In this document: in pieces, positions 8,981 to 53,441 of the stretch
Layout: each line of letters starts with the position of its first letter
Position numbering within the stretch: the stretch's first letter is position 1
Assembly: GCA_022750335.1 (NCBI GenBank)
Contig: JAKIVX010000002.1
Location: forward strand, 1-53,441
Source: Thermoplasmata archaeon
GTDB lineage: Archaea > Thermoplasmatota > Thermoplasmata > Lutacidiplasmatales > UBA184
DNA length: 53,441 nt
Reading direction: 5' to 3'
Notes under the pieces: generated by a model
Told to the model about the DNA's origin: nothing
Seen by the model: the letters and a program-made list of their open reading frames with translations, nothing else
Database searches by the model: none
Program-made: the position numbers and the translations under genes

Positions 8981-11900
8981 GCGGCCGGTCCCGCCGACGA
9001 TCCCAGAGGGCGATCGACAGTCCGGCCAGGACCACGACCACGCCGCCGATGAGGAGGTAGACGGGGAGCTCGGACGCGGGAGCGGAGGTGGGCGTCGACG
9101 GGGGGCTCTCGATGACGATCGACCAGCTCAGTTCGACCATCGCTCCGTCCCCGTCGCGTACCGTGAGCGCGGCGGAATAGCGGCCCGGTGTGAGGTACCG
9201 GTGCTCGAAGGTCTGGTTCGCGTTCAGGGTCCCGTCACCGGTCTGCCACTCGTAGGTGTACGGGACGGTGCCGCCGCTCGCGTTCGCGACGAAGCTCACC
9301 TCCAGGGGGGCGACTCCCCCCTGGACCGACGGGCCGCCGCTGACCGCGAGGACCGGAGAGAGTCCGGCGCCGATGTCGACCCCGAAGGAGGCGAAGGCCA
9401 CATCGCCCCAGGAGTCGCTGCCGTTGACGAGGGCCGTGTAGGCCCCCGCCGTCCCGTACGTATGGTCCACGCTGAAACCGCTCTCGGACATCCCGTCCCC
9501 GAAGCTCCAGTTCGCCACGCCGCCCCCCGGGGCGGTCACGGCGGCGGTTCCTGACCAAACCACCCCCGGTGCCCCCTCGGTGGGGCCCCCGGACGCGGAG
9601 AGGGCGAGCGCGTCGACCGCCGGCACGAAGCTGCCGCTCTCGGACGCGAACAGCTGGGGAGTGACGAGCGTCGCCACAGTGGTGGGGAAACCGTCCCCCC
9701 AATCGGCCGTGATCGAAGCGTAGAGATTGGAGGAGAGGTCCGCGCTTCCGGCCGTGTACGTCTGTTCCGCCGCCGACCCCCACGCCGTGGCGTTGCCACC
9801 CAGCTTCCAGAAGAGGGGCGACACGGGGGTCGACCCGTTCGGGAGCGCGGCGTGCGCGATGAAGTGTACCGTAGTCCCCGACGACAGATTGACCGCGGGG
9901 GAGAAAGTGGCCCACAGCGTCGGGACGGAGCCCCCTCCGCTCGGAAGGACTTCGATCACGAACCCTTCACTGGCGTTCCCATGGCCCTGGTCCCACGCGT
10001 CCCCGGTCGCGGAGTAAAATCCGGCCGATGTGTAGGTGTGGGCGACCCGAGCCCCGACCGCGCCGGAGCCGTCCCCAAAGTTCCAGAAGGTGTCGTTGGC
10101 GTCGGCGAGGTATCCACCGCCCGTGCTCACGGAAAACTGGACCGTCAATGGTGCCGGCCCGTACGTCGGAGTCGCCCCAAAGGACGCCGTCAACGCGGGG
10201 GCGACCGTTACATTCGTCTCGTTGGAGGCTCGGTCCCCGATGAGGTCGGTCGCATTCAGCGATAGAGGGAAGGTCCCGGGGGAGCGGAAGATCGTGCAGC
10301 CGCACGCTCCCACGTAGGGGTCCGTGGACGCGAACACGTCGGTCACCCCCGATCCCCCCTCATTGGTCACGCCCCCCTGGGTCTGGAAGAGGGATGGGAA
10401 GTCTGCCGGGGCGTCGCGCACCGGTGGTGACGTCACCGCGCTCACGGTGAACGGTCCGGTGGCGTTCGAGCAGGTCCGGCTCGGTGCGCCCTCGACGTCG
10501 ATCGGGAGGGGTCCTCCCCGACCACCGGCGATCGGGTGACCCGAATCCTGGACGATCACCGTCGCACAGAAGGCACCCGCGACGGCGTAGGCGTGCGTCG
10601 TCACGTGAGCCGAGGAGAGGTTGAGAAACGTCCCGTCTCCGAACGAGTAGAGGTAACTGTACGGGGCCGTCCCACCATGGACAGCCGTGGTGAAGGTGAC
10701 CGGAGCTCCGACCAGCGGCGCTGGGTTCGACGGGGTCAGGGTGACATTCAACGAACCACCCCCACCGACCACGATCGCGACCGGGTCCGAGACCGTCAGA
10801 TTCCCCGACGAGTCCGCGACGAACGCTTCGGCAGCGTACACTCCGGCCTCCCCGAATGTGTGCCGGACGACCCCATTGGAAGCCAGCGCCGACGTACCGT
10901 CGCCGAAGTAGACGCCCTGGAGAGGATAGGGCGATTGACCGCCGGAGGTCGCGATGGCGAACCGAACCTCGAGCGGGGCCTCGCCCGAGGTCGCGTTCGC
11001 GTACAACAGGGCGTGCAGCGAAGAGACGGGCACCGAGGGCCGGCTGAGATCCTGGACCAACGCGCCGACGATCGGCGTGCCGACCCCCGTCACGGGGTCC
11101 CAGCCGATCGCGGCGTCGTACCCGTTGTTCCCCGAGGTGATATCGTGGAAATCGGTCGCGTAGTCCGGACCGTTCAGGATGGAGTAGAACGACGGGTCGA
11201 GGAGGCCGAGGTCGTGGCCCGCGAACTGGTCTGAGATCGCCCCGAAGCCGGCCCAGATCGGGGTCGCAAGGCTCGTTCCGCCCACAAGACCCACCCCGCC
11301 GCCGGCGACGAACTCGACGGGGTCGGACGCGTCGGCCGATACATCGGGGACCCCTCGGGTCGCGGGAGAAACGGGGAGGCCCTCGCCGGACTGCCAGTAC
11401 GGCCGGGGGAAGGGGGAGTAGCCTCCGCCCGAACCTCCCTGGTTCTCGCATCCGGGGGAACGCGCTCCGGAAGAGTTGCCGCTCCAGCCTATTTCGGACT
11501 CATAAGCTCCGGTCGAGTTGACGGTGAGGTAGGTCCCGCCCACCCCGGTCACCGACGGGTCGGACGACGGATAGTCCGTGGAGACGCCGCTCGTCCCGTC
11601 CGAGGAACCGCAGTCGCCGGTTGCGACGAACACGCTGATCCCTTCGAGCGCGGCCGCCTCGAGCACCGGGCCCAGGATCTCGTAAGACCCGTCGCTGGAG
11701 GCGTTGCACTCAGAACTGCACGCGCCGCTGAACGCGTTGAACACGCCGACATCCGGTTCCCCCCAGCTCAAAGAGATCTCGTCCACCCGCTGATGGGAAA
11801 CGAGCCAGTCGACCGCGAGGTACAGTCCCACCCCCGAATTCGGCGCGAAGGTCATGGCGATCGAAGCGCCTGGCGCGGAGGCATGGGTCCACTCGATGTC

Positions 11901-12845
11901 GAGGGCCTCTTCCGTCCCCCACCCGCTCGAGCCGGTCTCGTTGAGATTGAGAGACGAGGGGACCGGATAGTTGAAGGTCACCGGCGGCGAAGGGAGGTCG
12001 AAGAGCGAGTCGAAGGTGGCGAGGTCGCTCGCCAGCTGCGTCTGGGGTTCTCCCGAATCGTAGGCGTCGACGACTCCGATCCGCTCTCCCGTCCCGTTTG
12101 TGCCGTTCTGCAGCAGTCCGGCCGAGTCGTAGGCGTTCCAGATGTCACACGGATTGAGACCCGAGGTGGAAGCGCACGTGGTCCCCGGCGTGACCGGTGC
12201 CGGGGCGAACCCCCGAGTGAGGTCGAGGGGCCGAGGGGTCGTCGTGTTCCCCAAGCCGTAGACCCCCGAGACCGGCACTCCGGCCGGGAGCCGAGCCGCG
12301 GAAGTATGACTGAAGAAGAGGTGGCCATCCGCGCCACGATAGTCTTCGAAGGAGGTTTCGAAGGCACCGGCGACCAGGTGGGCCGGCCCAGTGACCGTCA
12401 GCAGCAGTCCGTCCGGACTGAGGGCGGCACGGAGACCCTGGTCCTGAAAGTATCCCCTCACGGAGGCGATCGTATCGGGCGAAGCCCCGTATCGATCGGC
12501 GACCTCGGACGGCGATAGAAAGTGATGATACGCGCCTGTCCCCGGAATGGAGAGCGCGTCCTCGTACGAGAGGAACCCGTTCGGGTTCTGCGAAGGCAGG
12601 CCGACCAGCACCGTCAGCGGAGTGGTGGGCGGAAGGGCGCCGAGGGCTTGCACCCCAGCGCCGGGAAGGAATCCTCCGGCGACGAGCACTGGGCCGGACG
12701 GACCCACGGCCATGACCGTCGACGTCGGATCCAATGGCCCGTGGCTGCCCGCCCCCGCACCGACGGGATCGGCCAGGGTAACGGCGGCCAAAATCGCGAG
12801 AACGGCCACCGCGATGCTCGCGGCGCCGGCGGCGCGGAATACCAC
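8970..12845 (-). CDS. Cell-surface sedolisin (S53 protease) with PKD repeats and C-terminal anchor
   Basis: A secreted acid-type serine-carboxyl protease of 1291 residues. Order: signal segment (about 1-25), pro-kumamolisin-like activation domain (about 60-215), S53 catalytic domain (about 220-600), five PKD-like beta domains (about 620-690, 700-785, 885-965, 1100-1157, 1165-1245, several with FGDG cores) and a membrane helix at about 1261-1282 before RRRDR. Catalytic residues are Glu312 and Asp316 (GTEEALDIEW), Asp411 (ATGDCG) and Ser525 (GGTSLATP). A calcium-site block GWDPVTGVGTP ends the domain. I chose the GTG at 12845 because a TATA box sits 26 bases upstream. An ATG at 12905 would add 20 residues. 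It probably degrades protein at low pH on the cell surface and feeds the peptide transporter. Confidence 0.93.
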   Translation of the reverse strand: MVFRAAGAASIAVAVLAILAAVTLADPVGAGAGSHGPLDPTSTVMAVGPSGPVLVAGGFLPGAGVQALGALPPTTPLTVLVGLPSQNPNGFLSYEDALSIPGTGAYHHFLSPSEVADRYGASPDTIASVRGYFQDQGLRAALSPDGLLLTVTGPAHLVAGAFETSFEDYRGADGHLFFSHTSAARLPAGVPVSGVYGLGNTTTPRPLDLTRGFAPAPVTPGTTCASTSGLNPCDIWNAYDSAGLLQNGTNGTGERIGVVDAYDSGEPQTQLASDLATFDSLFDLPSPPVTFNYPVPSSLNLNETGSSGWGTEEALDIEWTHASAPGASIAMTFAPNSGVGLYLAVDWLVSHQRVDEISLSWGEPDVGVFNAFSGACSSECNASSDGSYEILGPVLEAAALEGISVFVATGDCGSSDGTSGVSTDYPSSDPSVTGVGGTYLTVNSTGAYESEIGWSGNSSGARSPGCENQGGSGGGYSPFPRPYWQSGEGLPVSPATRGVPDVSADASDPVEFVAGGGVGLVGGTSLATPIWAGFGAISDQFAGHDLGLLDPSFYSILNGPDYATDFHDITSGNNGYDAAIGWDPVTGVGTPIVGALVQDLSRPSVPVSSLHALLYANATSGEAPLEVRFAIATSGGQSPYPLQGVYFGDGTSALASNGVVRHTFGEAGVYAAEAFVADSSGNLTVSDPVAIVVGGGGSLNVTLTPSNPAPLVGAPVTFTTAVHGGTAPYSYLYSFGDGTFLNLSSAHVTTHAYAVAGAFCATVIVQDSGHPIAGGRGGPLPIDVEGAPSRTCSNATGPFTVSAVTSPPVRDAPADFPSLFQTQGGVTNEGGSGVTDVFASTDPYVGACGCTIFRSPGTFPLSLNATDLIGDRASNETNVTVAPALTASFGATPTYGPAPLTVQFSVSTGGGYLADANDTFWNFGDGSGAVGARVAHTYTSAGFYSATGDAWDQGHGNASEGFVIEVLPSGGGSVPTLWATFSPAVNLSSGTTVHFIAHAALPNGSTPVSPLFWKLGGNATAWGSAAEQTYTAGSADLSSNLYASITADWGDGFPTTVATLVTPQLFASESGSFVPAVDALALSASGGPTEGAPGVVWSGTAAVTAPGGGVANWSFGDGMSESGFSVDHTYGTAGAYTALVNGSDSWGDVAFASFGVDIGAGLSPVLAVSGGPSVQGGVAPLEVSFVANASGGTVPYTYEWQTGDGTLNANQTFEHRYLTPGRYSAALTVRDGDGAMVELSWSIVIESPPSTPTSAPASELPVYLLIGGVVVVLAGLSIALWDRRRDRPPTP

Positions 12846-12865
12846 GTCGCTAACGACGCGGCCAC

Positions 12866-12876
12866 CGTGTTTAACC
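12866..12876 (-). promoter_or_regulatory. TATA box for the large sedolisin gene
   Basis: Read on the minus strand, GGGTTAAACAC is centred about 26 bases before the GTG at 12845. This supports that start over the ATG at 12905, which lies upstream of the box. Confidence 0.5.
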
Positions 12877-12910
12877 CTGATGCCCGTTCGACGCCCTCGG
12901 CGCACAAGAC

Positions 12911-19647: not shown

Positions 19648-20889
19648 CTAGAACGACAGCGTCTCCCCCAACCGCACCCGCGGGTCCAGGTAGGCGATGA
19701 GGAAGTCGGCGATCACGTTCGCGATCACGACCATGAAGGTGAGCGTGAGCGTGGCCCCGGTGATCATCGCAAAGTCGATCCCCCCGCTGCCGCCGGCCCC
19801 GCCGGCGGCGAGGGCCACCATGAGCCCGACCCCGTTCGAATTGAACAGGAACTCGGCGATCGGCAACCAACCGAAGAACGTGGCGAACGAGACCGCGAGG
19901 ACGGTCACGGTCATCGTGTTCGAGTTCCGGGCCACCTGCCGATGGAGGATGGTCTTCTCCGAGACCCCCTGGGCGCGCGCGGTCCGGACGTAGTCGAGGT
20001 TCATCACCTCAAGGGAACTGTTCCGGACGTAGCGGAGGATGAGGCCCAAGTGGGCGAATGCGATCACGATCGCCGGCAGGACGAGCCGGAGGACCGAGTC
20101 GGCCCCCAGCCAGGGTTCTCCGTTGAGGAAGGCATCGACCGTGGGGAACCCGGTGGGATGACTGATGACGCCGAACGAGAGCCAGGAGGGGTATTGATTG
20201 CCGACGAAGCAGAGCTGGTTTGGCCACGACCCCTGGAACTCGGCCCAGGTCGGCTCACCGAGGGGGCACCACGGGTACCGGGCGAAATATCCGGTGTGAC
20301 TGCCCACCGTAATGACGCAGAGGACGAGCAGCAGCGAGCCGAGCAGGTACGTGGGGACCGCGAACCCGGAGAACGAGATCGCGCGGACGGCCTGGTCTGC
20401 CGGTTGGTTGCGTCGGGAGGCCGCGAGTCGTCCGAGCGGGAACGCCACCGCGACGACGATCCCCATCGCGAGCGCGATGAGCTCGAGCGTGTACGGGAGG
20501 AACCATCCGAGGACCTCCGTCACCGGTTGGCCCGCGGCTTCCGGGAAAAGCGCGGCGATCGTGCTGGCGTTGTCGACATACCCCCAGTGCCCGGTGAAGA
20601 TGTTTCCGATGTAGTGGAGCCATTGGACCGGGATGGGCATGTTCAGACCCGACCGATTGAGGAACCGGTAGTAGACCGGATTGTAGCACTGTTGGTACTG
20701 GTGGGGCGGAAGACAGGGCGCGGTCGGCTGGTAGATGTCCGGGTTCCGCGGGCTGGGAGAGCCGTACATCGCGGTCAACTGGGTGGGGATCGGCAGCGAA
20801 CTGTTGAGCAGGAACGTGACGGTCATCACTCCGAGGATGACGGGGATGAGGAGAAGCACCCGTCGGAGCAGATAGACCGACAACCGCAC
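19648..20889 (-). CDS. Solitary peptide ABC transporter permease, DppB type (paralogue 1)
   Basis: A 413-residue permease with six hydrophobic segments. The first is LLRRVLLLIPVILGVMTVTF. The cytoplasmic EAA-like loop is NLDYVRTARAQGVSE with HRQVARNS after it, and AYLDPRVRLG lies at the C-terminus. It is longer than usual DppB (about 310-340) because of two enlarged outside loops with cysteines, also seen in the paralogue at 28333-29568. No permease partner, ATPase or binding protein adjoins it. The GTG at 20889 follows a TATA box by 27 bases. It may pair with DppC of the main system or with partners elsewhere. Confidence 0.88.
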   Translation of the reverse strand: MRLSVYLLRRVLLLIPVILGVMTVTFLLNSSLPIPTQLTAMYGSPSPRNPDIYQPTAPCLPPHQYQQCYNPVYYRFLNRSGLNMPIPVQWLHYIGNIFTGHWGYVDNASTIAALFPEAAGQPVTEVLGWFLPYTLELIALAMGIVVAVAFPLGRLAASRRNQPADQAVRAISFSGFAVPTYLLGSLLLVLCVITVGSHTGYFARYPWCPLGEPTWAEFQGSWPNQLCFVGNQYPSWLSFGVISHPTGFPTVDAFLNGEPWLGADSVLRLVLPAIVIAFAHLGLILRYVRNSSLEVMNLDYVRTARAQGVSEKTILHRQVARNSNTMTVTVLAVSFATFFGWLPIAEFLFNSNGVGLMVALAAGGAGGSGGIDFAMITGATLTLTFMVVIANVIADFLIAYLDPRVRLGETLSF

Positions 20890-23965: not shown

Positions 23966-25195
23966 CTACGACGCCCCGCCCGGCGACGAGAGCGCCGCGG
24001 CCCGCGGCGTTTCCATCCCGCCGTGGCCGATTGGGGTCATGGTCGCCGGGGCGGCGCCCGAGTACGCCTCCGGGTATAGATGACACGCGACGAAGTGATT
24101 GCGTCGGACCTCGAGCATCGGAGGGTCCACCTGGGAGCAGATCGGCATCACGGCCGGGCAGCGAGTGTGGAACCGGCACCCCGATGGCGGGGCCGCGGGA
24201 CTCGGCACGTCGCCCTGGAGGACGACCCGTTCGCGCTTCAACTCGGGATCGGGGATGGGGATCGCCGAGAGGAGCGCCTGGGTGTACGGGTGGAGGGGCT
24301 GCGTGAAGAGCGCGTTCGTTTCTGCCGTCTCGACCACCACGCCGAGATACATCACGACGACGCGGTGCGCCATGGCACGGACGACGGAGAGGTGGTGGGA
24401 GATGAACAGGTAGGCCAGCCGCTGCTCGGTCTGGAGCTTCTTCAAGATGTTGAGGATCTGGGCCTGGACCGAGACGTCGAGCGCGCTGGTCGGTTCGTCC
24501 AGGACGATGAACTCGGGCCGCAGAGCGAGGGCCCGGGCGATCCCGATCCGTTGCCGCTGTCCCCCCGAGAACTCGTGCGGGAACCGCCACTCGTGCTCGG
24601 GGTTGAGGCCGACGTCCTGGAGGAGCTCGGTCACCCGGGCCGCCCGTTGGGCGCGCGTTCCGGCGTGGTGGATCTCGAGCGGTTCCGCCAAGATGTCCTT
24701 CACGAGCATCCGGGGGCTCAGGGAACTGAACGGGTCCTGGAAGACGATCTGGAGCTTCCCCCGGAGCTTTCGCATCTTTCGGGCGGGTAGTCGGTAGAGG
24801 GAGTACTTGTCGGCCAGTGTATCGAGCTCGTTGAGAGCCCTTTGGGCCGCCGGCGAGGTCGGACGCGCCTTCCCATTGTTGTCGTCGCGGTTGATCGGGG
24901 GAAGCTGGGGGTAGAGCGTGTTCAGCCGGTCCTGGACCTCGGGGGGAGGCCGGTAGTAGGCGTGGCCCGAGGTCGGTTCGATGAGCCGCAGCAGCATCCG
25001 GCCGACCGTCGTCTTCCCGCAGCCCGACTCGCCGACGAGGCCGATCGTCTCGCCCTCGAAGATGTCGAGGCTGACACCATCGACCGCGCGGACGTCTCCG
25101 ACCCGCGTGCCGAAGAAACCGCCGCGGATGGGGAAGTACTTCCGGAGGTTCCGTACCGACAGGACGACGGGCGGCTCGCCTTCCGGTGTGCTCAC
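23966..25195 (-). CDS. dppF: Oligopeptide ABC transporter ATPase, DppF/OppF type, with insertion
   Basis: One of two ATPases driving peptide uptake. In its 409 residues: Walker A GESGCGKT (55-62), Q-loop in [13 protein letters not shown] (Gln153), signature [15 protein letters not shown] (about 209), Walker [13 protein letters not shown] and the H-loop in FISHHLSVV. The C-terminal oligopeptide-transporter region carries four cysteines ([16 protein letters not shown]) of the type that can bind an iron-sulfur cluster. About 60 extra residues, polar and partly helical, sit between Walker A and the Q-loop (about 84-140). It starts 16 bases after the dppD stop. Confidence 0.94.
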
Positions 25196-25211: not shown

Positions 25212-26891
25212 TCAAGGAGTTGCGACCGGACCCTGATATAAATAGCACGCGACCGAATGATCCGGTCCCTCGAGCGTCATCGGAGGGGCCACCGTCTTGC
25301 ACACCGGCATCGCGTAGGGGCAGCGCGGATGGAACCGGCATCCCGACGGCGGGGTGATCAGGTTGGGCACCGAGCCGGGGATCGAGGCGAGCTCCTTCTC
25401 GGGTTGGTCGAGCCGGGGGATGGACGCGAGGAGGCCCTGGGCATAGGGGTGGAGCGGACGTCGGAAGACCTCGCGCACCGGGCCTTTCTCGATGATGCGT
25501 CCGGCGTACATCACCGCGACGCTGTCGGCCACTTCCGCGATGACGGCGAGGTCGTGCGTGATGAGGAGGATGGCGGTGCCGACCCGTTCTTTCAGGTCCC
25601 GCATCAACTCGAGAATCTGGGCCTGGATGGTCACGTCCAGCGCCGTGGTCGGTTCGTCGGCGATGAGCAGGTCGGGCTCCGAGGAGAGCGACATCGCGAT
25701 CATCACCCGCTGCAGCATCCCACCGGAGAGTTCGTGCGGGTAGCCCCGGGCCACTTGCACCGGGTTCGCGATCGAGACGCCCTCCAGCAGCCGGACGACC
25801 CGCCAGAATAGTTCGCGCTGGAGCGATCGGCCGCTGCGCCGCTTGATCCCCCAGAGCCGGTAATAGAAGTGAGTGAGGCGGAGCTGACCGGCCTGGCGCT
25901 TTAGGTTGAGCCGCGCGGTCGCGTGCGACTCGCGGTCCAGCATCTCCGACATGAAGACGTCGCTCAACTTCGCCTGGATCTCGAGGAGGTGGCGCTGGTA
26001 GGCGAGGTACCGACGGGCCGAGGCACCGAGCCGGATCCGGTCGAGCGAACGGCCGAGTTCCCGTCGCATCTCTTCCGGCCGGCTCGACGCGGCGCGTACG
26101 ATGTAGAACGCCTGGGTGCCGATCGAGCTGACGTTCGCGGCTTCCCCGAAGCGCTTCGCTGCCGCCCGGATCTCCTCCCGGCTTCCGCTGCGCGCCGCGT
26201 CCAGAAGTTGGGCCCCCGCCCGGCCGACGGCCGGAGAATCGGGGGTGGCCCTGAGCAACTCATTGATGATCTCGATGCCCCGGTGGAGTAGGAGAACCTC
26301 GCTCAGCTGGTCCCCGATCGAGAAGACCGGGTTCATCGCCTGGGTGGGTTCCTGGAAGATGGTGGATATTGACCGCCCTCGGACGGCGGAGAGGCGTTCG
26401 TTGGCGGCCTTGATGCGGCGGAAACTCCGCTTGACCTTCACCCGACCCGTGGTGCCGACCGGGGTGTAACTGGCCTCCTTGTCGAGACCCCACAGCAGGT
26501 CCGCGCCCTGAAAGACGACCTCCCCGCTCATGATCCGCCCGGGGGGATCCGAGATGAGGCGCGTGATGGAGAACGCGGTGACGCTCTTGCCGCAACCGGT
26601 CTCCCCTACCAGGCCGACCGTCTCGCCGCGATGTACGCGGAACGTCACTCCGTCGAGGGCCTTCACGACCCCGTCGTACGTGTAGAAGTAGGTGACGAGG
26701 TCCTTGACCCGGAGGATCGTCCGCTCGTCCTCGGATTGGGAGGACGCGTCGGAAGGGGCTTCCGGCGCCCCGCTCTGGATCGGCGCCGCGTCCGCCCGGG
26801 TCTGCGGCAGGGGGTCGGTCGCCTTCGGATTTGATGCGATCGCTCCTGCCACTGAAATCACCTCACCGCCGAAGGCGGGGGTCGAGGGCAT
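25212..26891 (-). CDS. dppD: Oligopeptide ABC transporter ATPase, DppD/OppD type, with large helical insertion
   Basis: The partner ATPase, 559 residues against about 330 in the usual family. Walker A is GETGCGKS (96-103), the Q-loop Gln180 is in [15 protein letters not shown], the signature LSGGMLQRV is at 388, Walker B is DLLIADEP (407-414) and the H-loop is His446. Cysteines at 518, 524, 531 and 549 match the C-terminal cluster-type motif. Extra parts: a 55-residue N-terminal tail, about 35 residues near 135-170, and about 155 mostly helical residues (about 205-362) between Q-loop and signature. That is the helical domain that contacts the permease. Its start overlaps the dppC end by 29 bases. 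Confidence 0.93.
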
Positions 26892-28332: not shown

Positions 28333-29568
28333 CTACCCCAGCCGAACCCGCGGGTCGAGGTAGGCGTACAGAACATCCACGATGATGTTCGCGAGGACCA
28401 CGATGATGGTAAACAGGAGCGTGGCCCCAAAGACGAGCCCGAAGTCGATCCCTCCCTTGGAGATTTGGACCGAATAGGCGAGGATGAGCCCGACCCCGTT
28501 CAGCTTGAACACGTCCTCGATGATGGGGAACCCACCGATGAACGCCGCGAACGTCAGCCCGAGGACAGTGATCGTGACGTTGAGCGAGTTACGCCCGGCG
28601 TGGCGTTTCACCACGGTCTGCTCGGGTATCCCTTCCGCGCGGGCCGTTCGAACGAAGTCGAGGTTCATGACTTCGAGCATGCTGTTCCGAACAAACCGCA
28701 GCAGTCCCGCGATGGAGGCGAACGCGATCACCATGGCGGGAATCGCGATCCGAAGAATCGTGTCCAGCGCCAGCCACCCTTGACCGTGGATCAGGGCGTC
28801 CACGGTAGGGAAACCGGTGGGGTGGCTGATGAATCCGTCGGTCAACCATGACGGATACCCCTGGTTTCCGGCAGCCGCACTGATATTGTAACAAGTATAC
28901 GTCGGCCAGGATCCGGTGAACTCCTGCCAGGTCGTCTCGCCCGGACCGCACCACGGCGGGTGCGCAAAGAATCCGGTCCCTGCCCCAAAGGCGATCACTG
29001 CAGCCATGAGCGCCAAGGAACTCAGGAGGAAACCGGGCAATGCATAACCCGAGAAGGACAGAATTCGTGCGGACTGGTCCACGGGACGGTTGCGGTTCAC
29101 GGCGGCCAAGTTTCCGAGCGGGATGGCGATGATCAGAATGATGGCCAGGGAAAGCGCGGCGAGCTCAAGCGTGTAGGGGAGGAACCAGCCCAGGACCGTC
29201 GAAACCTGCTGTCCCTGTGTGGCCTGGAAGGTCTGGCCGGCAGTGCTACCGTTGCCGACGGTTCCCCAATTCAACGTGAAACTGTTGTAGATGTAGACCG
29301 CCCACTGGACCGGTATCGGTTTGTTGAGGCCCAATTTCGCCAAATCCTCATAGTAAACGGGGTTTCGGCACTCCTGGGCTGGGTTCGTTGGGCAGGGTCG
29401 GAGGGGTTGATACAGCCAGGCGTCTCGGGGGGGAGCCGCCCCGAACTGCGAAGAAAGTCGCTCATGAACGGGGAGTGAACTGACCAGCACGAAGGTAATG
29501 GTCATCACACCGATGATGACCGGGACGAGCAAGATTAGGCGGCGGAGAATGTACACCCACATCCGCAT
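28333..29568 (-). CDS. dppB: Peptide ABC transporter permease, DppB type (paralogue 2)
   Basis: A 411-residue permease, first gene of the dppB-C-D-F operon. Six hydrophobic segments, EAA-like loop NLDFVRTARAEGIPE and C-terminal AYLDPRVRLG match paralogue 1 at 19648-20889 nearly throughout, including the enlarged outside loops with matching cysteines. The ATG at 29568 has a GAGGGGTGAT stretch upstream. The stop is six bases from the dppC start. It is divergent from the binding-protein gene at 30279 across a 710-base gap. Confidence 0.92.
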   Translation of the reverse strand: MRMWVYILRRLILLVPVIIGVMTITFVLVSSLPVHERLSSQFGAAPPRDAWLYQPLRPCPTNPAQECRNPVYYEDLAKLGLNKPIPVQWAVYIYNSFTLNWGTVGNGSTAGQTFQATQGQQVSTVLGWFLPYTLELAALSLAIILIIAIPLGNLAAVNRNRPVDQSARILSFSGYALPGFLLSSLALMAAVIAFGAGTGFFAHPPWCGPGETTWQEFTGSWPTYTCYNISAAAGNQGYPSWLTDGFISHPTGFPTVDALIHGQGWLALDTILRIAIPAMVIAFASIAGLLRFVRNSMLEVMNLDFVRTARAEGIPEQTVVKRHAGRNSLNVTITVLGLTFAAFIGGFPIIEDVFKLNGVGLILAYSVQISKGGIDFGLVFGATLLFTIIVVLANIIVDVLYAYLDPRVRLG

Positions 29569-30278: not shown

Positions 30279-33200
30279 ATGCAGAGCAAAGTAAGATGGG
30301 CGACAGCCATTTTGGGTATTGCCATCGTGGGAGTGATGCTGTTCGGCAACGTGCCATCCACGCATTTTGTGGGTGGGGCCGGAGCAGTATTGCCGACTCA
30401 TGAAGGCTCGTCCAGTATGGCCGGTGCGCCGAAAGCGATCGTTAGGTCGGCGGCGAATCCCCACGTGTCCGAAGGCCCTCACCCGGGCACTCTCGAGATT
30501 TGGGAGGCTACGAGTGGCGGTCCTGAGACCGTGGATCCGAGCGTTTGTTATTACACAGTTTGTGACGAGCCGATTTCTAACGTCTATCAGACGCTGATCG
30601 CGTACAACGGGACGGACGATGGTCCGACCCCCGACAACTACGTGCCGCAGCTCGCGACGTGCGTCCCGGGCTCGCTCGAATGTGCCGCTCAGTTTGGCGG
30701 GAACGACCTGGTCTACCCCAACGCAACCACAGGCGCCCCCCAGTACTACACCTTTGAGATCGATTCTGGCGCGCGCTTCTATGACTCGGCGCACGCGGCA
30801 AGCTGGGGCGTTTACCCTTCGGATGTCGTGTTCACGTTCGCCCGGACGATGGGCTTCGCGGACCTTCAGTACGAGGAGCAGACCAATGGCTGGATCAACA
30901 CGCAGGACCTAGTCCCCCTCGGCAACCCGGGATGGGACAGTGGAATCCACGCGCCCCTCAACAACACGCCGAGCAACATCCTGAACGCGTTCATCGTGAA
31001 CGACTCCACCTACTGCCCCCAGTCGGTGGTCGTGGCCACCAACGGGTGCGTCACCTTCAACGTTGGCGCATCGGGCCAGGCTTGGCCATACTTCCTGGAA
31101 CTCCTCGCGGACAACCTTGGTGGTAGCATCCAGCCGTGCGGCTGGTACACCGCTCAAAGCGCCGGCGTCCCGGGCTTCACGGGAACGAGCGCGGCGAACG
31201 GCGATGGACCGTGCCTCCTCCCCGGCGGCACGACCAGCACGACGCAGCCCGGTTACGAGAACTACGTCAACACGACGGGACCCACCGGTTGGGACTCCTT
31301 CGAGTTGGAAGCGGACAACTGGCCCGCGAACCAGCCAGGGGTTCAGTGGAGCGACGTCGGATCTGGCCCGTACTACGTGGACAACCCCATCAGCCCCGCG
31401 AGCGGGTACACGATGGTGGCCAACCCCGCCTACGCGGCTCCAGTCGGATGCGCGGGCCAGCCGGGCTGCCAGCCCGTGGCCGGCACGTATGTTCCGAACG
31501 TCGACATCGTCTGGGAGAGCGGCACGGTAGGAGACCAGACGGGACTCACCGAGATGGAAGCGGGACAAGCGGACAGCGCCGGGTTCTTTTCGTCGGACCT
31601 CCAACAGGTCCAGACCTACGTGAAGAACTACACGCTGCTGACCAACATCCCCACGCTGACGATCGGTTTCTTCCCGTTGGATCTGACCTTCAACGTGACG
31701 AACGAGCAGACGCAGGACCTGACGGGCCAGCTCAACGTTCCGGGGAACTTCCTCCAGAACGATGCGCTGCGCCAGTTCCTCGTGAACTCGTTCCCCTACA
31801 AGACGATTGATGACACGTTCAACGAGGTCAACAACACGTTGTTCGGAGAAGCGTACGGTGGAGCGATCCCCCACAACATGGGTGACTACTACCCCACGAA
31901 CATCTCCTGGCCGACCGGGGACCCGGTTTCGAGTCCTGGCACGGTAGGCAATGTCACGTGGTGGTGGGCGCAGGCGAACGACCCGTCCAGCTCCCTCTAT
32001 GACCCGGAGCTGGCCGCCTGCACGTCGTCCGCGCCGTGCCGCTGGGCCACCTTCTCGTTCCTCGGGGACACCCCCTTGGACGACCAGATGAACCTGTGGA
32101 ACAGCGAAGTCGCGACCCTGTCGGGCGGAAACCTGACACCGTACTTGGTCGACCAGAGCGGAAACGTGCTGATCACGGATCTCGGCAGCCCGCCGGGCCA
32201 GAACCCACTGCCCGTCTACGACTTTGGGTGGGCCCCGGACTACCCCGACCCGTCGGATTACATGGCGCCGATGTACTACCCCAGCAACTCGTACACGTCG
32301 CCCGACTCGGTCGCTCAGACGATGGCCCTCTCCGTCAACAACGCGTCGACGTGCCCCAACGACTACGGCGCGTGGTCGAACCTCACCTACTGGGCCGGCC
32401 TAACGGCCATCCCAGCGGACTGCCAGGGCGCGGCCTATGACACGATGGTCTCGTTCATGAACCAGGCGCAGTTCAACGCGAACGTCCCCCAGCGCGGGGT
32501 GGAGTACAACCTCGTCGAGCAGATCGCGAACAAGCTCGCGTTGTATGTGTACGACCCGCAATCCGTGGCCGTTATCGACTACGGGAACTGGATCCAACCG
32601 ACGACCATCAACACCAACCCGGTGTTCGGTGGCGGTGGCGTTCAGCTGTGGTACGACTGGAACTACGCGGCGCTCTACCACCAGGCGACGTTCACTGAGG
32701 CGGGCCTGCTCGGCGGGACCAACTGGACCGTCACGGTTGACGGGACCCAGTACAGCTCGCTGAGTACGACGACGGTGACGGTGCCAGCGCTGACCGACGG
32801 GGTGTATGCGTACACCATCGGCGGCATCGCGGGCTACACGTCCAACCCCGTCAGCGGAACGTTTACCATCAGCGCGGCGAACGCCTCGGTGTTCGTGACC
32901 TACACGGCGATCACCGGTCCGACGTACGTCCTGACCTTCGCGGAGACCGGCCTTGCGGCCGGGACCACGTGGACGGTCACGGCGACCAGTTCGACGGGCG
33001 GTGCAGTAGCTACGGGCAACACCACCTCAATCGCCACGGTGGCTCTGCCAGCGGCCAGCTACACCTACGCGGTGCGCCCCGTGACGGGCTACAACACTCC
33101 CGCGGGTGGTACGGTGGACTTGACCGGCGCGATGACCGTCAACGTGACCTTCCTGAGCAAGACCTACTCCGGGTATGCGGTAACGTTTACCGAAACGGGT

Positions 33201-33614
33201 CTGCCGTCAGGGTCTTCGTGGGCGATCTCCGTCAACGGGACGGTCCATACGGAAAGCACGGCGACCATTGTGGTGACGTTGGGCAACGGGTCGTACTCTT
33301 GGGGAGTCACGTCATTCCCCACGGGCTACACGGACACCCCGTCCGCCGGAACGTTCTCGGTCGTGGGCGCGGTCCAGGTCGTCGACATCAAGGCGGCGGC
33401 GGTCCAGTCGGTCACACCAGCCAGCAACCCAGCCTGGACGTATCTCAGCACGCTCGCGTGGGTCCTCATCGGGGTCCTCGCACTGCTGGTGATCATCTTC
33501 CTGGCGCTGGCGCTGATGGCGGGACGGCGACCCCCGAGCAGCCCACCGGAAAGCTGGTCCTCGAGTTCGTCCACCCCGACGGACATGAAGGGCAACTCGG
33601 GAGGCAGTTCGTAG
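30279..33614 (+). CDS. dppA: Membrane-anchored peptide-binding protein (SBP family 5) with three beta repeats
   Basis: The solute receptor of the Dpp system, 1111 residues against about 500-550 in bacteria. Order: signal segment (1-36), family 5 binding domain (about 65-800) starting GTLEIWEATSGGPETVDP and including VYPSDVVFTFARTMG and VYDFGWAPDYPDPSDYMAP, three beta repeats (about 803-1040), a membrane helix (about 1055-1080) and a serine-rich cytoplasmic tail. It has many cysteines in close pairs, suggesting disulfides. There is no lipobox: the protein is held by the C-terminal helix. Divergent from dppB-C-D-F. The protein starting at 50334 is a close paralogue. Confidence 0.93.
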   Translation: MQSKVRWATAILGIAIVGVMLFGNVPSTHFVGGAGAVLPTHEGSSSMAGAPKAIVRSAANPHVSEGPHPGTLEIWEATSGGPETVDPSVCYYTVCDEPISNVYQTLIAYNGTDDGPTPDNYVPQLATCVPGSLECAAQFGGNDLVYPNATTGAPQYYTFEIDSGARFYDSAHAASWGVYPSDVVFTFARTMGFADLQYEEQTNGWINTQDLVPLGNPGWDSGIHAPLNNTPSNILNAFIVNDSTYCPQSVVVATNGCVTFNVGASGQAWPYFLELLADNLGGSIQPCGWYTAQSAGVPGFTGTSAANGDGPCLLPGGTTSTTQPGYENYVNTTGPTGWDSFELEADNWPANQPGVQWSDVGSGPYYVDNPISPASGYTMVANPAYAAPVGCAGQPGCQPVAGTYVPNVDIVWESGTVGDQTGLTEMEAGQADSAGFFSSDLQQVQTYVKNYTLLTNIPTLTIGFFPLDLTFNVTNEQTQDLTGQLNVPGNFLQNDALRQFLVNSFPYKTIDDTFNEVNNTLFGEAYGGAIPHNMGDYYPTNISWPTGDPVSSPGTVGNVTWWWAQANDPSSSLYDPELAACTSSAPCRWATFSFLGDTPLDDQMNLWNSEVATLSGGNLTPYLVDQSGNVLITDLGSPPGQNPLPVYDFGWAPDYPDPSDYMAPMYYPSNSYTSPDSVAQTMALSVNNASTCPNDYGAWSNLTYWAGLTAIPADCQGAAYDTMVSFMNQAQFNANVPQRGVEYNLVEQIANKLALYVYDPQSVAVIDYGNWIQPTTINTNPVFGGGGVQLWYDWNYAALYHQATFTEAGLLGGTNWTVTVDGTQYSSLSTTTVTVPALTDGVYAYTIGGIAGYTSNPVSGTFTISAANASVFVTYTAITGPTYVLTFAETGLAAGTTWTVTATSSTGGAVATGNTTSIATVALPAASYTYAVRPVTGYNTPAGGTVDLTGAMTVNVTFLSKTYSGYAVTFTETGLPSGSSWAISVNGTVHTESTATIVVTLGNGSYSWGVTSFPTGYTDTPSAGTFSVVGAVQVVDIKAAAVQSVTPASNPAWTYLSTLAWVLIGVLALLVIIFLALALMAGRRPPSSPPESWSSSSSTPTDMKGNSGGSS
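32684..33395 (+). repeat. Three tandem secreted beta-domain repeats in the first binding protein
   Basis: Copies begin near 32684, 32929 and 33178, each about 72-75 codons. The consensus opens TFTETGLxxGTxW, then a strand NxSVTVNG, a threonine/serine stretch, LxNGxYxYTV, GYTxxPxxGTFTV and a closing xVTVxVTF strand. The copies differ enough at DNA level to be old duplications. Confidence 0.85.
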
Positions 33615-37723: not shown

Positions 37724-40144
37724 ATGACCCGTCTGTCGCCGCGACGTCGGGGCCCCACCCTGCTTTGGACAGGGGCGCTGGTACTCGCGCTGTTACTCGC
37801 TACGTTCCTCTCGGCCGTGGGACCGACGGTCGCCGCATCGGCGTCTGCTTCCGGAGCGGAGGTCCGGTCCGCCTTCGTGGCGAGCACGGGGTACAGTCCC
37901 TCGCTCCTCGAACGTGTCGCCGACCCGAGTCCGGCGGTCGGCACGCTCAGCGTCGTGGTGACGTTCCACCCAACCGATCCGCTGCTATTTGATGTGCCCA
38001 CGTCGGGTGCCCGTCCCCTGACCGTGGCGGAGATCGGGAACGAGTTCGGCCTCTCCCCCAGTGCCTACCATGCGGCCGAGTCCTACTTTCTGACGCAAGG
38101 GCTGACCATCGAACACTCGGGAGCGGACCGACTTTCGCTCACGGTCGGGGGGCCCGTCAGCGCCGTCGACCGGGCGTTTTCGACCTCGCTCGACCAGGCA
38201 ACCTACGACCACCGGTCGGTAGAGCTCCCCGCGACCGCGCCCGCGCTCCCTCCCAGCCTGGAGTCGGAGGTCGCCGGCATCACCGGCCTCACCTCTGGAT
38301 TCGACCAATTCCTCCTCCCCTTGTCGGACCCGCAGCTCCACGCCACCGCGGCCCCGTCCCAAGGGTCGAGCGACCTCGTGACCCCGTCGATCGCCCGTCA
38401 GATCTACGCCGCGTCGAACCTGTACAACGTATCCGGGACCTCCCACTTCGCCACCGGCGAGAACATCGTACTCCTCCTCTGGGGAGACGGCTATAGCCCG
38501 ACCGACCTCGCGACGTTCTTCTCCTCCTACTATCCCGCCGGCGATTTTCCTGCCGTCACCCTGCATTCGGACCCGATCGATGGTGCACCGGCCCCCTCCC
38601 CCCAGGCGGTGGACGACCCCAGCGGCGCCCCCGAAGAACTCACGCTGGACTTGGAGTGGTCCGGGTCCCTCGCGCCGGGGGCCACGCTGAACGCCGTCTA
38701 CGCTCCCGACGGCCCCAGCTCGGACAGCTACTCGCCGACGGATGCCTCCATGGCCGATGCGCTGCACGCGGCGGTCACCGGAATCTCGGGCGTCGACGCG
38801 ATATCAATGTCGTTTGGGACGGCGGAGAATACGGCTTCGGGTCTCGAATCGGCTTGGACCACCGACCTCGCGGAAGCGGCACAGGAACAGATCACGCTTC
38901 TCGCGGCCACCGGCGATACGGGTGGCGACTCCAGCGTGACCGGAGGTTGCTCGGGCGTCGTGCAACCGGATTATCCGGCGTCGGACCCTGGCGTGATCGC
39001 GGTTGGCGGAACGGACCCTGTGCTGGCCCGGAATGTCGTGGGCCAGGTCACTGGGATCGCCTCTGAATCCGCATGGGCGGATTCCGGAGGGGGCTATTCG
39101 ACCACGTACTCGGCGCCGAGCTGGCAACTGGTCGGGAGCGCAGCGGGACCGATCCGGTCGGCGGGAGGGTTCCGAGGAATGCCGGACGTCTCCGCGTCGG
39201 CCGCGGACAACTTCGTGTACTACGATGGGCTCGAGCAGACGGGCGCGGGAACCAGCTTCGCCACCCCCTTGTGGGCGGGTCTCATCACTGAGATGGACGC
39301 CCTCCACGGGAGCCCGCTCGGTTTCCTCACGCCCCGTCTGTACTACATCGGGTCGTCCGAACCGAATGGAACGGTCGCCAACGGCCTCGTGGACGTAACG
39401 TCCGGGGCGAACTGCCTCGGTCCGGCGACCCGAGGATGGGACTCCGCGACCGGTTGGGGAACCCCTCGGGCCCTCCTGCTCTACGCCGACCTGACCTCGA
39501 CCTTTGTCAACCTCTCCGTGGACGCTACGCCCTCGCCGGTCGGTCCGGGCGGGGAACTCACTGTGGGAGCCCATCTGGCCAACGCGACGACCCGAGCCCC
39601 GATCGCGGGCGTTGCGGTCGTCGTCACGGTGACGGCCGACACGACCTTCGGACCGTGCGGCGGCACCTTCGGGAGCGCCGACCCAGCGACCAATGCGAGC
39701 GGGGACGTCTCGGTCGTGGTCTCAATCCCCAGCTGTTACTTGGGGACCCGGGCGGTGGTATCGGTCGCCGTGATGTCGAGCGGACTCTTTGGCTCCAACG
39801 AGACCACCATCGGGGTCAACCTGCTCGGGTACCTTGGATTCCTCGGTCCCATCACCGTGTACCCCAACGACGTCGCCGTCTACCTACTCATCATGTCGGC
39901 CGCGATCGCCATCGGGTACGTGCTCGGTCGAGGACCTCCGGGACAGCACCGTTCCTCTCCGTCCCCTCCTCCTTCCGCTTCGAATCCAAGCCCATCCCCC
40001 ACCGTCCCCCCAGAATCGGTGGGGGCTCCGCCGTCGCCGGAAACATCCGCCGCGACTTGGGTGGTGGGACCGACGGTGTCGAGCCCGCCCTCCGGCCGAA
40101 CTCCCCCGCCTCCCGAGGAGTACTCACGCCCTCCTTCGCCCTGA
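37724..40144 (+). CDS. Second cell-surface sedolisin (S53 protease) with C-terminal anchor
   Basis: 806 residues: signal segment (about 12-38), pro-kumamolisin domain (about 65-200), S53 catalytic domain (about 215-590), an Ig-like beta region (about 595-690), a membrane helix (about 700-722) and a long proline/serine-rich tail. Catalytic residues are Glu305 and Asp309 (PEELTLDLEW), Asp398 (ATGDTGG) and Ser511 (GAGTSFATP). The calcium-site end GWDSATGWGTP is present. It has no PKD repeats, unlike the sedolisin at 8970-12845, and the two catalytic domains are clearly diverged. Expected to act on protein outside the cell, probably at acid pH. Confidence 0.93.
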   Translation: MTRLSPRRRGPTLLWTGALVLALLLATFLSAVGPTVAASASASGAEVRSAFVASTGYSPSLLERVADPSPAVGTLSVVVTFHPTDPLLFDVPTSGARPLTVAEIGNEFGLSPSAYHAAESYFLTQGLTIEHSGADRLSLTVGGPVSAVDRAFSTSLDQATYDHRSVELPATAPALPPSLESEVAGITGLTSGFDQFLLPLSDPQLHATAAPSQGSSDLVTPSIARQIYAASNLYNVSGTSHFATGENIVLLLWGDGYSPTDLATFFSSYYPAGDFPAVTLHSDPIDGAPAPSPQAVDDPSGAPEELTLDLEWSGSLAPGATLNAVYAPDGPSSDSYSPTDASMADALHAAVTGISGVDAISMSFGTAENTASGLESAWTTDLAEAAQEQITLLAATGDTGGDSSVTGGCSGVVQPDYPASDPGVIAVGGTDPVLARNVVGQVTGIASESAWADSGGGYSTTYSAPSWQLVGSAAGPIRSAGGFRGMPDVSASAADNFVYYDGLEQTGAGTSFATPLWAGLITEMDALHGSPLGFLTPRLYYIGSSEPNGTVANGLVDVTSGANCLGPATRGWDSATGWGTPRALLLYADLTSTFVNLSVDATPSPVGPGGELTVGAHLANATTRAPIAGVAVVVTVTADTTFGPCGGTFGSADPATNASGDVSVVVSIPSCYLGTRAVVSVAVMSSGLFGSNETTIGVNLLGYLGFLGPITVYPNDVAVYLLIMSAAIAIGYVLGRGPPGQHRSSPSPPPSASNPSPSPTVPPESVGAPPSPETSAATWVVGPTVSSPPSGRTPPPPEEYSRPPSP

Positions 40145-50333: not shown

Positions 50334-53300
50334 ATGAAGGGCCGTTCCGGGCCGAAAGGTGCATCCCTTCTCGTACCCGGTGTGAGCGTCGGCGTGGCCT
50401 GCTTGATGTGCCTTGGTCCGGGGTTTCTCGGAACGGCAGGAGCGGGCGCAGCGGCCCTCGCCCCCTCGGGGGTGACAGTGCCTCTCCATTGGCCATCCGG
50501 AAATCCAGCGGCTTCACCCCGCGCCCAGGTCGGGGGTCGAGACGGGCCTCATCCGGGCACACTCGAGATTTGGGAGTCTTCTAGCGGAGGCCCGGAAACG
50601 GTCGACCCAAGTATCTGCTACTACGCTGTCTGCGACGAACCGATTTCGAACGTCTACGAGACGCTGGTCGCGTACAACGGGAGCGATGATGGGCCGACTC
50701 CCACCAACTTTGTCCCGGAGCTCGCGACGTGCGTCCCCGGGTCCATTGAGTGCGCGGCCCAGTTCGGGGGGAACGACCTCGTATGGACCAACAATTCCAC
50801 CGGGGCCCCCGAGTATTACACCTTCGAGATCGACTCGGGGGCCCGCTTCTACGACGCGGCTCACGGCGCCAGCTGGCCGGTCTACCCGTCGGATGTCGTG
50901 TTCACTTTTGCCCGCACGATGGGTTTCTCGGACCTGCAGTTCGAGGAGCAAACGAACGGCTGGATCAACACACAGGACCTGGTCCCCACCGGGAACTTCA
51001 GCTGGGACGCCGGGATCCACGCTCCTCTCAACAACACCCCTGGGCACATCCTCGACGCGTTTCTGGTGAATGACTCGACCTACTGTCCCACCTCGGTGGT
51101 CGTCTCCACCCACGGTTGTGTCACCTTCAAGGTCAGTGCATCAGGGCTCGGCTGGCCGTTCTTCCTCGAGCTGGTAGCGGACAATCTGGGGGCGAGCATC
51201 GAGCCATGCGGTTGGTACACCTACCAAGGTGGGTCCGTCCCCGGGTTCCTGGGAACGAACGCAAGTTACGGCGACGGGCCGTGCCTGCTCCCAGGAGGGA
51301 CGACCAACACGTCGCTGGCCGGTTATCAGGAGTACATCGACAGCGTCGGACCTGAGGGTTGGGACACCTTTGAGCAAGAGGCTGACAATTGGCCGGGGGA
51401 CCAGCCCTCGGTCCAATGGAGCGATGTCGGATCGGGGCCGTACTACGTCGACAATCCGATCGACCCGGCGACGGGGTACACTCTGGAGGCGAATCCGGCC
51501 TACACGGCGCCGGTTGGTTGCGCAAGCCAGCCGGGCTGCATGCCCGTCGCGGGTACTTACATCCCGGCGGTCGATGTCGTGTGGGAGAGCGGTACGGTGG
51601 GCGACCAGAACGGTCTCACCGAACTGGCGGTAGGGCAGGCCGACAGTGCAGGATTCTTCTCGAATGACCTGCCCGTGGTCGAGAGCGACGCCCGAAACTA
51701 CTCGGTGCTCGCGAACGTCCCCACTCTCACCATCGGATTCTTCCCATTTACCCTCGACTTCAACGTGACGAACGAACAGACGATCGACCCCACCGGACTG
51801 CTCAACGTCCCGGGTACATTCTTTCAAAACGACGCGCTGCGGCAGTTCCTCGTGAATGCCTACCCCTACCGGACGATCGACAGCACCTACGACACCGTCA
51901 ACGGAACCATGTTGGGAGAAGGGTACGGTGGGGCGATTCCTCACGATCTAGGTCCGTACTACGACGCTGGTATTGATTGGCCGCAAGGGAACCCGACGGC
52001 CAATTCGTCCGTCGTCGGCAACGTTACATGGTGGTGGGACGAAGCCAACAACGCCAGCAGTCCCTTGTATGACCCACAGCTCGCCGGCTGTAACTCGACC
52101 GACCCGTGCCGTTGGGCCACCTTCTCGTTCTTCGGGGACACGCCCCTCGACGACGAATTCAATGACTGGAACGGAGAGGTCGCTAACCTATCCGGCGGGA
52201 GCTTGCAGCCGTACCTCGTGGACGTCGGGAACTGCCTCGCCTTTGAGTGTTGTGGTTACCTCGGCGGGTACTGTCCCGGCGGGAGTGCACTCACCGTCTA
52301 CGACTTTGGATGGGCACCGGATTATCCGGACCCGTCTGACTACATGGCCCCGATGTACTATCCGAACAATTCCTACACCTATCCGGATGCCCTTTCAGAG
52401 ACTCTAGGTTCCTCGCCCAACAATGCGTCGAGCTGTCCCGACGACTACGGAGCGTTTTCAAACCTGACTTACTGGGCGGGTGTAGGAGAAATTCCCACAG
52501 CGTGCCAAGGTGCGGCCTACGACACCATGGTCGCATGGATGAACGTCGCCGCCTACGAATCAAGCGCCTCACTTCGAATTGTCGAATACAATCTGATCGA
52601 ACAGATCGCGAACGAGCTGGCGCTGTACGTCTATGATCCACAGTCCGTGGCGGTGCTCGATTACGGACACTGGATCGAACCGTCCACGATCAACACAAAC
52701 CCGGTAGTCGGGGGCGGAGGGGACCAACTTTGGTACGACTGGAATTACGTATCGAATTTTTTTAATGCGACCTTCACAGAAGTTGGGCTTTCGGCCGGCA
52801 GCGAGTGGAATGTCACCGTCGCGGGGATATCATACAGCTCCGGGTCCCCGAGCCTGGAGGTTTCCGGCCTGGCGAATGGAAGTTTCAATTTCACGGTAGG
52901 AAGTCTGCCCGGGTACACCGCCGCTCCAGCACACGGAAACTTCACTATCGCTGGGGCCGACGAGACCGTTTCCATCACGTTCACCAGTCGGCCTCCGCCT
53001 CCGTTGTTCCTAACCATCCAAGAGTACGGTCTCCCGCCGGCCACGGAGTGGAACGTGCTGGTGAGTCCGATCTCGGCCGGCGGTTCGGAAACGAATATTT
53101 CCGGTGCCTCCGAGACGCTGGTCACACCGGTGGTTGCCGGGGTCGAATATTCGTACGCGCCCGGCACGGTCGGGGGATTCGCGACGCCGGCTCCGGGAAC
53201 AATCGTTATCGAGGCAGATGCAACCGTAACCGTCCTCTACGGCCCCGAGTACCCGATCACCTTCGAGGAGGTGGGTCTCGCGGCGGGCACATCTTGGTCA

Positions 53301-53441
53301 GTGACCGTGGGAAATCTGACGGATGAGTCCTCTTCGATGCAGTCCGTCTTTTCTGAGCCCAACGGATCCTATCCGGACTCAGTGGCTCCGGTCCGGGGGT
53401 ACATGCTGGAATCGGCTCCGGACAATGTGACGGTGAACGGT
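50334..53441 (+). CDS. Second membrane-type peptide-binding protein (SBP family 5), cut by the window end
   Basis: 1036 codons are open to the right edge with no stop. The ATG at 50334 gives a signal segment (basic MKGRSGPKG, then a hydrophobic stretch ending near GTAGAGAAA). The binding domain follows from GTLEIWESSSGGPETVDP. It is collinear with the protein at 30279-33614, with shared blocks such as ECAAQFGGNDLV, WSDVGSGPYYVDNPI, FGWAPDYPDPSDYMAPMYY and ALYVYDPQSVAV, and the same cysteine layout. An extra cysteine cluster near 52237-52278 (NCLAFECCGYLGGYC) is absent from the first. Three beta repeats follow, the third incomplete. No transporter genes accompany it within the window. Confidence 0.92.
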   Translation, partial: MKGRSGPKGASLLVPGVSVGVACLMCLGPGFLGTAGAGAAALAPSGVTVPLHWPSGNPAASPRAQVGGRDGPHPGTLEIWESSSGGPETVDPSICYYAVCDEPISNVYETLVAYNGSDDGPTPTNFVPELATCVPGSIECAAQFGGNDLVWTNNSTGAPEYYTFEIDSGARFYDAAHGASWPVYPSDVVFTFARTMGFSDLQFEEQTNGWINTQDLVPTGNFSWDAGIHAPLNNTPGHILDAFLVNDSTYCPTSVVVSTHGCVTFKVSASGLGWPFFLELVADNLGASIEPCGWYTYQGGSVPGFLGTNASYGDGPCLLPGGTTNTSLAGYQEYIDSVGPEGWDTFEQEADNWPGDQPSVQWSDVGSGPYYVDNPIDPATGYTLEANPAYTAPVGCASQPGCMPVAGTYIPAVDVVWESGTVGDQNGLTELAVGQADSAGFFSNDLPVVESDARNYSVLANVPTLTIGFFPFTLDFNVTNEQTIDPTGLLNVPGTFFQNDALRQFLVNAYPYRTIDSTYDTVNGTMLGEGYGGAIPHDLGPYYDAGIDWPQGNPTANSSVVGNVTWWWDEANNASSPLYDPQLAGCNSTDPCRWATFSFFGDTPLDDEFNDWNGEVANLSGGSLQPYLVDVGNCLAFECCGYLGGYCPGGSALTVYDFGWAPDYPDPSDYMAPMYYPNNSYTYPDALSETLGSSPNNASSCPDDYGAFSNLTYWAGVGEIPTACQGAAYDTMVAWMNVAAYESSASLRIVEYNLIEQIANELALYVYDPQSVAVLDYGHWIEPSTINTNPVVGGGGDQLWYDWNYVSNFFNATFTEVGLSAGSEWNVTVAGISYSSGSPSLEVSGLANGSFNFTVGSLPGYTAAPAHGNFTIAGADETVSITFTSRPPPPLFLTIQEYGLPPATEWNVLVSPISAGGSETNISGASETLVTPVVAGVEYSYAPGTVGGFATPAPGTIVIEADATVTVLYGPEYPITFEEVGLAAGTSWSVTVGNLTDESSSMQSVFSEPNGSYPDSVAPVRGYMLESAPDNVTVNG
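52764..53441 (+). repeat. Beta-domain repeats in the second binding protein (third cut by the window end)
   Basis: Copies start near 52764 (TFTEVGLSAGSEWNVTV), 53009 (TIQEYGLPPATEWNVLV) and 53257 (TFEEVGLAAGTSWSVTV). They correspond to the three repeats of the first binding protein but have drifted more, especially the middle one. Confidence 0.8.

Follow-up and report, generated by a model that had tools for sequence, protein, structure and literature searches.

Results

The receptor gene and its neighbours

In the window, the whole stretch of 53,441 nucleotides that was analysed, the open reading frame at 30279-33614 on the + strand is real and encodes a receptor of 1111 amino acids. An AlphaFold2 model of the receptor, built on 33 homologues, had a mean confidence of 80 and a pTM of 0.66, and ran from a folded domain (residues ~66-795) through three beta-sandwich repeats (~801-1041), an unstructured stretch (1042-1057) and a helix (1058-1080) to a disordered tail (Table 1). 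Genes of the dppBCDF type adjoin the receptor gene of the window, and of 12 homologous loci in other genomes 10 have them too, while at the remaining two (L046 and L051) no permease genes were found in the DNA examined. Below, receptors that carry the C-terminal helix and the repeats found in the window are referred to as type A, and relatives with an N-terminal helix and a PKD stalk as type B. Receptor and dpp genes stand head to head in the closest type A relatives of the window, lie on the same strand at L047 and, where type B loci have permease genes, are arranged tail to tail.

Table 1. Coordinates of the receptor features and of related genes in the window
Feature	Coordinates	Strand	Details
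Export signal, residues 1-36	30279..30386	+	Hydrophobic core 7-25 (hydropathy); candidate signal peptidase I site AGA/V after residue 36
Ser/Ala-rich disordered linker, residues 37-65	30387..30473	+	Model confidence <50 over residues 17-64
Substrate-binding domain, residues 66-795	30474..32663	+	Cluster-C DppA/OppA fold with insertions; seven predicted disulfides
Asp654 in GWAPDYPDP	32238..32240	+	Aligned with OppA GWCADYNEP
Stalk repeat 1, residues 802-876	32682..32906	+	60.9 bits
Stalk repeat 2, residues 883-958	32925..33152	+	51.6 bits
Stalk repeat 3, residues 966-1041	33174..33401	+	65.5 bits over 966-1037; model strands reach 1041
Juxtamembrane linker, residues 1042-1057 (16 residues)	33402..33449	+	Model confidence ~46, without secondary structure
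C-terminal transmembrane helix, residues 1058-1080	33450..33518	+	Hydropathy 3.28 (1062-1080); model helix
Predicted cytoplasmic tail, residues 1081-1111	33519..33611	+	RR, then PPxxPPxSW motif and Ser run; Ser/Pro-rich
Paralogous receptor, 64% identical	50334..53441, runs off window end	+	Complete in L040 335-3952: 1205 aa
DppB-type permease	28333..29568	-	BPD_transp_1 E 4.7e-27; conserved neighbour
DppC-type permease, enlarged TM1-TM2 loop	26863..28326	-	BPD_transp_1 E 4.3e-22 and OppC_N
Two stalk-family half-repeats in DppC loop	27784..28083	-	Residues 82-131 (second half), 158-181 (first half)
DppD-type ATPase, expanded helical region	25212..26891	-	ABC_tran and oligo_HPY
DppF-type ATPase	23966..25195	-	ABC_tran and oligo_HPY

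Between its Q-loop and signature motif, DppD has about 200 residues, which on visual inspection is well above double the usual number and is a feature common to six relatives. Away from the dpp operon, a second, lone DppB-type permease gene (19648-20889, - strand) has an ATP-dependent DNA ligase gene as its neighbour. The complete copy of the paralogous receptor shows a C-terminal helix and four repeats; around the copy at 50334, the DNA examined contained no dpp genes. Receptors that have no adjacent permease genes (this copy and those at L046 and L051) may use a distant permease or have another role. A further relative of the receptor (L016 991-5724) has one repeat before the binding domain and a YNCE/NHL-type beta-propeller followed by four more repeats after it, with no C-terminal helix.

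The window also contains genes for two pro-kumamolisin (S53-type) exported acid proteases, one (8970-12905, - strand) with several PKD domains and the other (37724-40144, + strand) with a C-terminal hydrophobic segment and a Pro-rich tail. The presence of these two genes fits a peptide-scavenging life, and for Lutacidiplasmatales, the probable order of the host, a peptide/nickel ABC transporter has been described along with S53 peptidases (PMC9287336).

The binding domain and its putative ligand

When the binding domain was compared with the PDB by Foldseek, the best match was DppA (6ofq; E 1.9e-21, target TM-score 0.76) and the top matches were DppA/OppA-type proteins only, with alignments of about 740 columns against targets of about 510 residues. 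As modelled, the domain of about 730 residues consists of one cluster-C fold that carries insertions and is about 1.4 times as large as usual. A tandem duplication as the reason for this size was ruled out, since Foldseek sees one fold only. The preliminary description, in which the domain was twice the simple size, thus overstated the difference from the solved DppA and OppA proteins. The Pfam family SBP_bac_5 (PF00496) matched the receptor itself weakly (E 3.9e-4; 20.1 bits, under the 32.4 cut-off), and was matched at E<=0.01 by 22 of the 33 homologues, with the sister L021 above the cut-off at 45.3 bits.

A family profile alignment to OppA placed GWAPDYPDP of the receptor on GWCADYNEP, whose Asp holds the amino end of the peptide in OppA, and Asp654 was kept in all 29 homologues covering that position. 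This OppA-like amine-binding motif points to peptides as the probable ligands of the receptor. The ligands of the SBP_bac_5 family also include nickel, opines and others, and the importer would not be one for peptides if the receptor bound another cluster-C ligand such as a nickel complex, an opine or a sugar. NCBIfam indeed ranks nickel and oligopeptide permeases together for both DppB and DppC, and NikA and CntA are also among the Foldseek matches of the binding domain. However, with the OppA motif kept and the best fold matches being DppA and OppA, we consider a ligand other than peptides improbable.

The receptor has 14 cysteines, all within the binding domain and none in the stalk, at positions that pair as 90-95, 128-135, 246-257, 287-312, 391-397, 581-587 and 692-715. 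Across the 33 homologues, both cysteines of a pair were present 178 times, both were absent 36 times, and a pair was split once. This concerted retention and loss supports seven disulfides in the ectodomain, which are likely on the pattern of conservation and agree with the disulfide stabilisation proposed from the sequence at the outset. Invariant cysteines also occur in predicted outer loops of DppB and DppC. Residues 70-800 of the receptor (30481-32678, + strand) are strongly biased in charge, with 70 Asp/Glu versus 8 Lys/Arg. The host is an acid-soil-type archaeon, and the acidic bias of the binding domain is possibly an adaptation to low pH.

The stalk and its repeats

For scoring the stalk, a repeat profile was built only from homologues outside the window's genome. 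The three repeats scored 60.9, 51.6 and 65.5 bits, while the best of 1000 shuffled stalks reached 11.3 bits, and the three-repeat stalk of the preliminary description is thereby borne out. A Pfam scan of the receptor and its homologues returned no family above threshold for the stalk repeat. The repeat weakly resembles SpaA-like prealbumin and carboxypeptidase-regulatory domains, a viral fold library gave beta-sandwich resemblances only, and the fold is probably transthyretin/carboxypeptidase-regulatory-like. The PDB also gave matches between designed 'Pizza' propellers and the stalk, but these covered about 35 residues with no single stretch significant and were dismissed as chance.

Complete type A homologues have 3-6 stalk repeats each, as expected of a spacer. 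Because the repeat number varies and the juxtamembrane linker is disordered, a fixed-length rigid arm is unlikely, and the word 'rigid' that had been applied to the stalk finds no support. In a census, the stalk repeat was present in 65 of 151 sampled genomes of the class, often in at least 38 copies per genome, and in all 30 listed genomes of the window's family. The repeat is a common surface module, abundant and apparently unnamed, of acid-loving Thermoplasmata.

The half-repeats in the DppC loop, which stand in swapped order, scored 38.3 and 14.4 bits against at most 10.5 bits for shuffles, and the model confidence was about 30 over the insert (DppC residues 76-183). The related domain attributed earlier to the permease is thus a case of real homology, but it was found in only 2 of 11 DppC proteins (those of the window and L043) and is therefore not part of a general mechanism. 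On this count, the idea that the domain in the permease serves generally for docking was ruled out. The DppC half-repeats are a local acquisition.

Export signal and membrane anchor

The N-terminus of the receptor is ordinary signal-like, not pilin-like, and because the cysteines of the receptor start only at residue 90, it lacks a lipobox, as had been noted. Cleavage of the signal would fall after residue 36, at the candidate AXA site. At the other end, hydropathy and the model agree on a C-terminal membrane helix, and the tail that follows, previously described as serine-rich and cytoplasmic, is Ser/Pro-rich and predicted to lie on the cytoplasmic side. Among type A homologues, mean identity was 51% in the binding domain, 50% in the helix, 44% in the tail and 34% in the stalk, and in the N-terminal parts it was 19% in the signal and 18% in the Ser/Ala linker. 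Since conservation of the helix and tail comes close to that of the binding domain while the stalk and signal drift, the anchor is under constraint, and this pattern suggests contacts there, perhaps with the permease.

The same conservation bears on whether the receptor, although first membrane-bound, is then cut in the juxtamembrane linker to release a soluble scavenger. Residues 1042-1057 are unstructured in the model and several exported proteases are encoded in the genome. On the other hand, a conserved helix and tail would be needless for a discarded piece, and a cell without an outer membrane would lose a receptor that diffused freely; we therefore regard such release as very unlikely. 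Slightly less likely still is a main role as a sensor or adhesin at the cell surface, built from a binding domain and signalling to the inside through the tail: the tail motif PPxxPPxSW is conserved, and the paralogue and two relatives have no adjacent permease genes, but dppBCDF is kept beside the gene at most loci and the Pfam scan found no known signalling domain in the tail.

When a profile of the C-terminal module was searched, the top matches (E <1e-17) were type A receptor-type open reading frames or fragments, and the weaker ones were other long open reading frames. With its strongest matches in receptor-type sequences, the module is not clearly a general sorting signal.

How usual the layout is

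The layout was compared with 62 complete family-5 binding proteins of the class Thermoplasmata, a non-random sample made up of the 30 best matches and two sets picked partly for length. A C-terminal helix was found in 35 of the 62, and in 24 of those 35 more than 250 residues follow the Pfam domain. In about 7 of the 62, helix and stalk are both N-terminal, a count that leaves out two short proteins of about 535 residues (L067 and L075), and in about 20 an N-terminal hydrophobic segment only, or none, was detected. Pfam scans of examples from the class identified Big_1, macroglobulin, CarboxypepD_reg and PKD domains in C-terminal stalks and PKD domains in N-terminal stalks. Within the class Thermoplasmata it is routine for a receptor to be C-tethered with an extra stalk, built there from other domains. 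The preliminary description had called the arrangement 'not the standard Dpp design', and this holds against bacteria but not within the class, for which the layout has turned out to be largely routine among archaeal receptors.

Bacterial DppA and OppA (SBP_bac_5, cluster C) have the same fold, operon partners and amine-binding motif as the receptor. Unlike the receptor, they are soluble in the periplasm or lipid-anchored, have about 510 residues, and have neither a stalk nor a C-terminal helix. Another known kind, C-anchored archaeal binding proteins, combines a class I signal with a C-terminal helix; its examples L058, L092 and L106 like the receptor have an exported N-terminus, SBP_bac_5, a beta-domain stalk, a C-terminal helix and a charged or Pro-rich tail, although the stalks of the C-anchored class Thermoplasmata examples consist of Big_1, macroglobulin, CarboxypepD_reg or PKD domains and not of the receptor's repeat. 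Elferink and Albers reportedly described C-terminally anchored peptide receptors in Sulfolobus. That class I exported archaeal proteins are embedded or anchored at the C-terminus is textbook knowledge (PMC2910488). ABC receptors that archaea retain at the envelope also include GlcS and AraS of the Sulfolobus bindosome (PMC4187195), but these have N-terminal class III pilin-like signals and are assembled by the Bas system, whereas the receptor has no such N-terminus.

Type B sisters with the opposite anchor

The type B receptors (L017-L023, L025, L027 and L029) come from the same genus. They have an N-terminal pilin-like helix (a RRGISTTMAAVVMIVVIVVVG-like start) and a PKD stalk, and stop at the binding domain, lacking a C-terminal anchor. 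Their binding domain is that of the receptor, with which it shares about 40-45% identity, and at most loci examined they have the same dppBCDF neighbours. In a tree of binding domains, types A and B were separated by a single, weakly supported branch (66/58). A search for a prepilin peptidase that might process type B receptors turned up weak matches only, from 3 of the 12 genomes, one of these exceeding the cut-off together with its neighbours. The type B receptors might also be built into a bindosome-like assembly of the kind so far known for Sulfolobus sugar receptors.

Discussion

The domains, fold, neighbourhood, cysteine pairing pattern and predicted anchor computed here indicate that the receptor serves a Dpp/Opp-type ABC importer as its peptide-binding subunit, in a form kept on the cell, a reading to which we give a probability of about 0.8. 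Fold, motif, neighbourhood and topology prediction agree with the C-tethered peptide receptor, partnered with the adjacent Dpp-type permease, that was proposed at the start. We infer the cleavage, topology, ligand and hinge motion of the receptor as follows. The N-terminal signal would take the receptor through the membrane and then probably be removed, while the C-terminal helix would remain embedded, leaving the basic, Ser/Pro-rich tail on the inner side, as the predicted topology has it. The DppA/OppA-fold domain, which about seven disulfides would stiffen in a way suited to an exposed, acidic setting, would catch peptides, with Asp654 of the conserved motif probably clamping the free amino end. 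The three repeats would space the binding domain from the membrane, and the linker at residues 1042-1057 is probably a hinge on which the loaded domain could swing down onto DppBC encoded next door. Such a tether would stand in for the lipid anchor of Gram-positive bacteria or the periplasm of Gram-negative bacteria, and would both prevent loss of the receptor and raise its local concentration at the permease.

The design of the receptor was spotted correctly in the preliminary description, though it is largely ordinary for the lineage; the switch of the anchor end is worth following. Within one genus, the same binding domain appears to be shown from either end beside the same permease genes, on a C-terminal helix with transthyretin-like repeats in type A and on an N-terminal helix with PKD domains in type B. 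That both types dock productively on DppBC, so that the end of the tether is immaterial to the importer, we propose tentatively, at somewhat less than even odds. If both types do dock on DppBC, they would provide natural pairs for testing tether length and polarity against uptake.

Taken together, the results document how peptide receptors are retained in cells without a periplasm, by protein tethers with beta-domain stalks. As the anchor end, the stalk family and the stalk length vary while the binding domain and permease genes are kept, these receptors form a natural series for what a tether needs.
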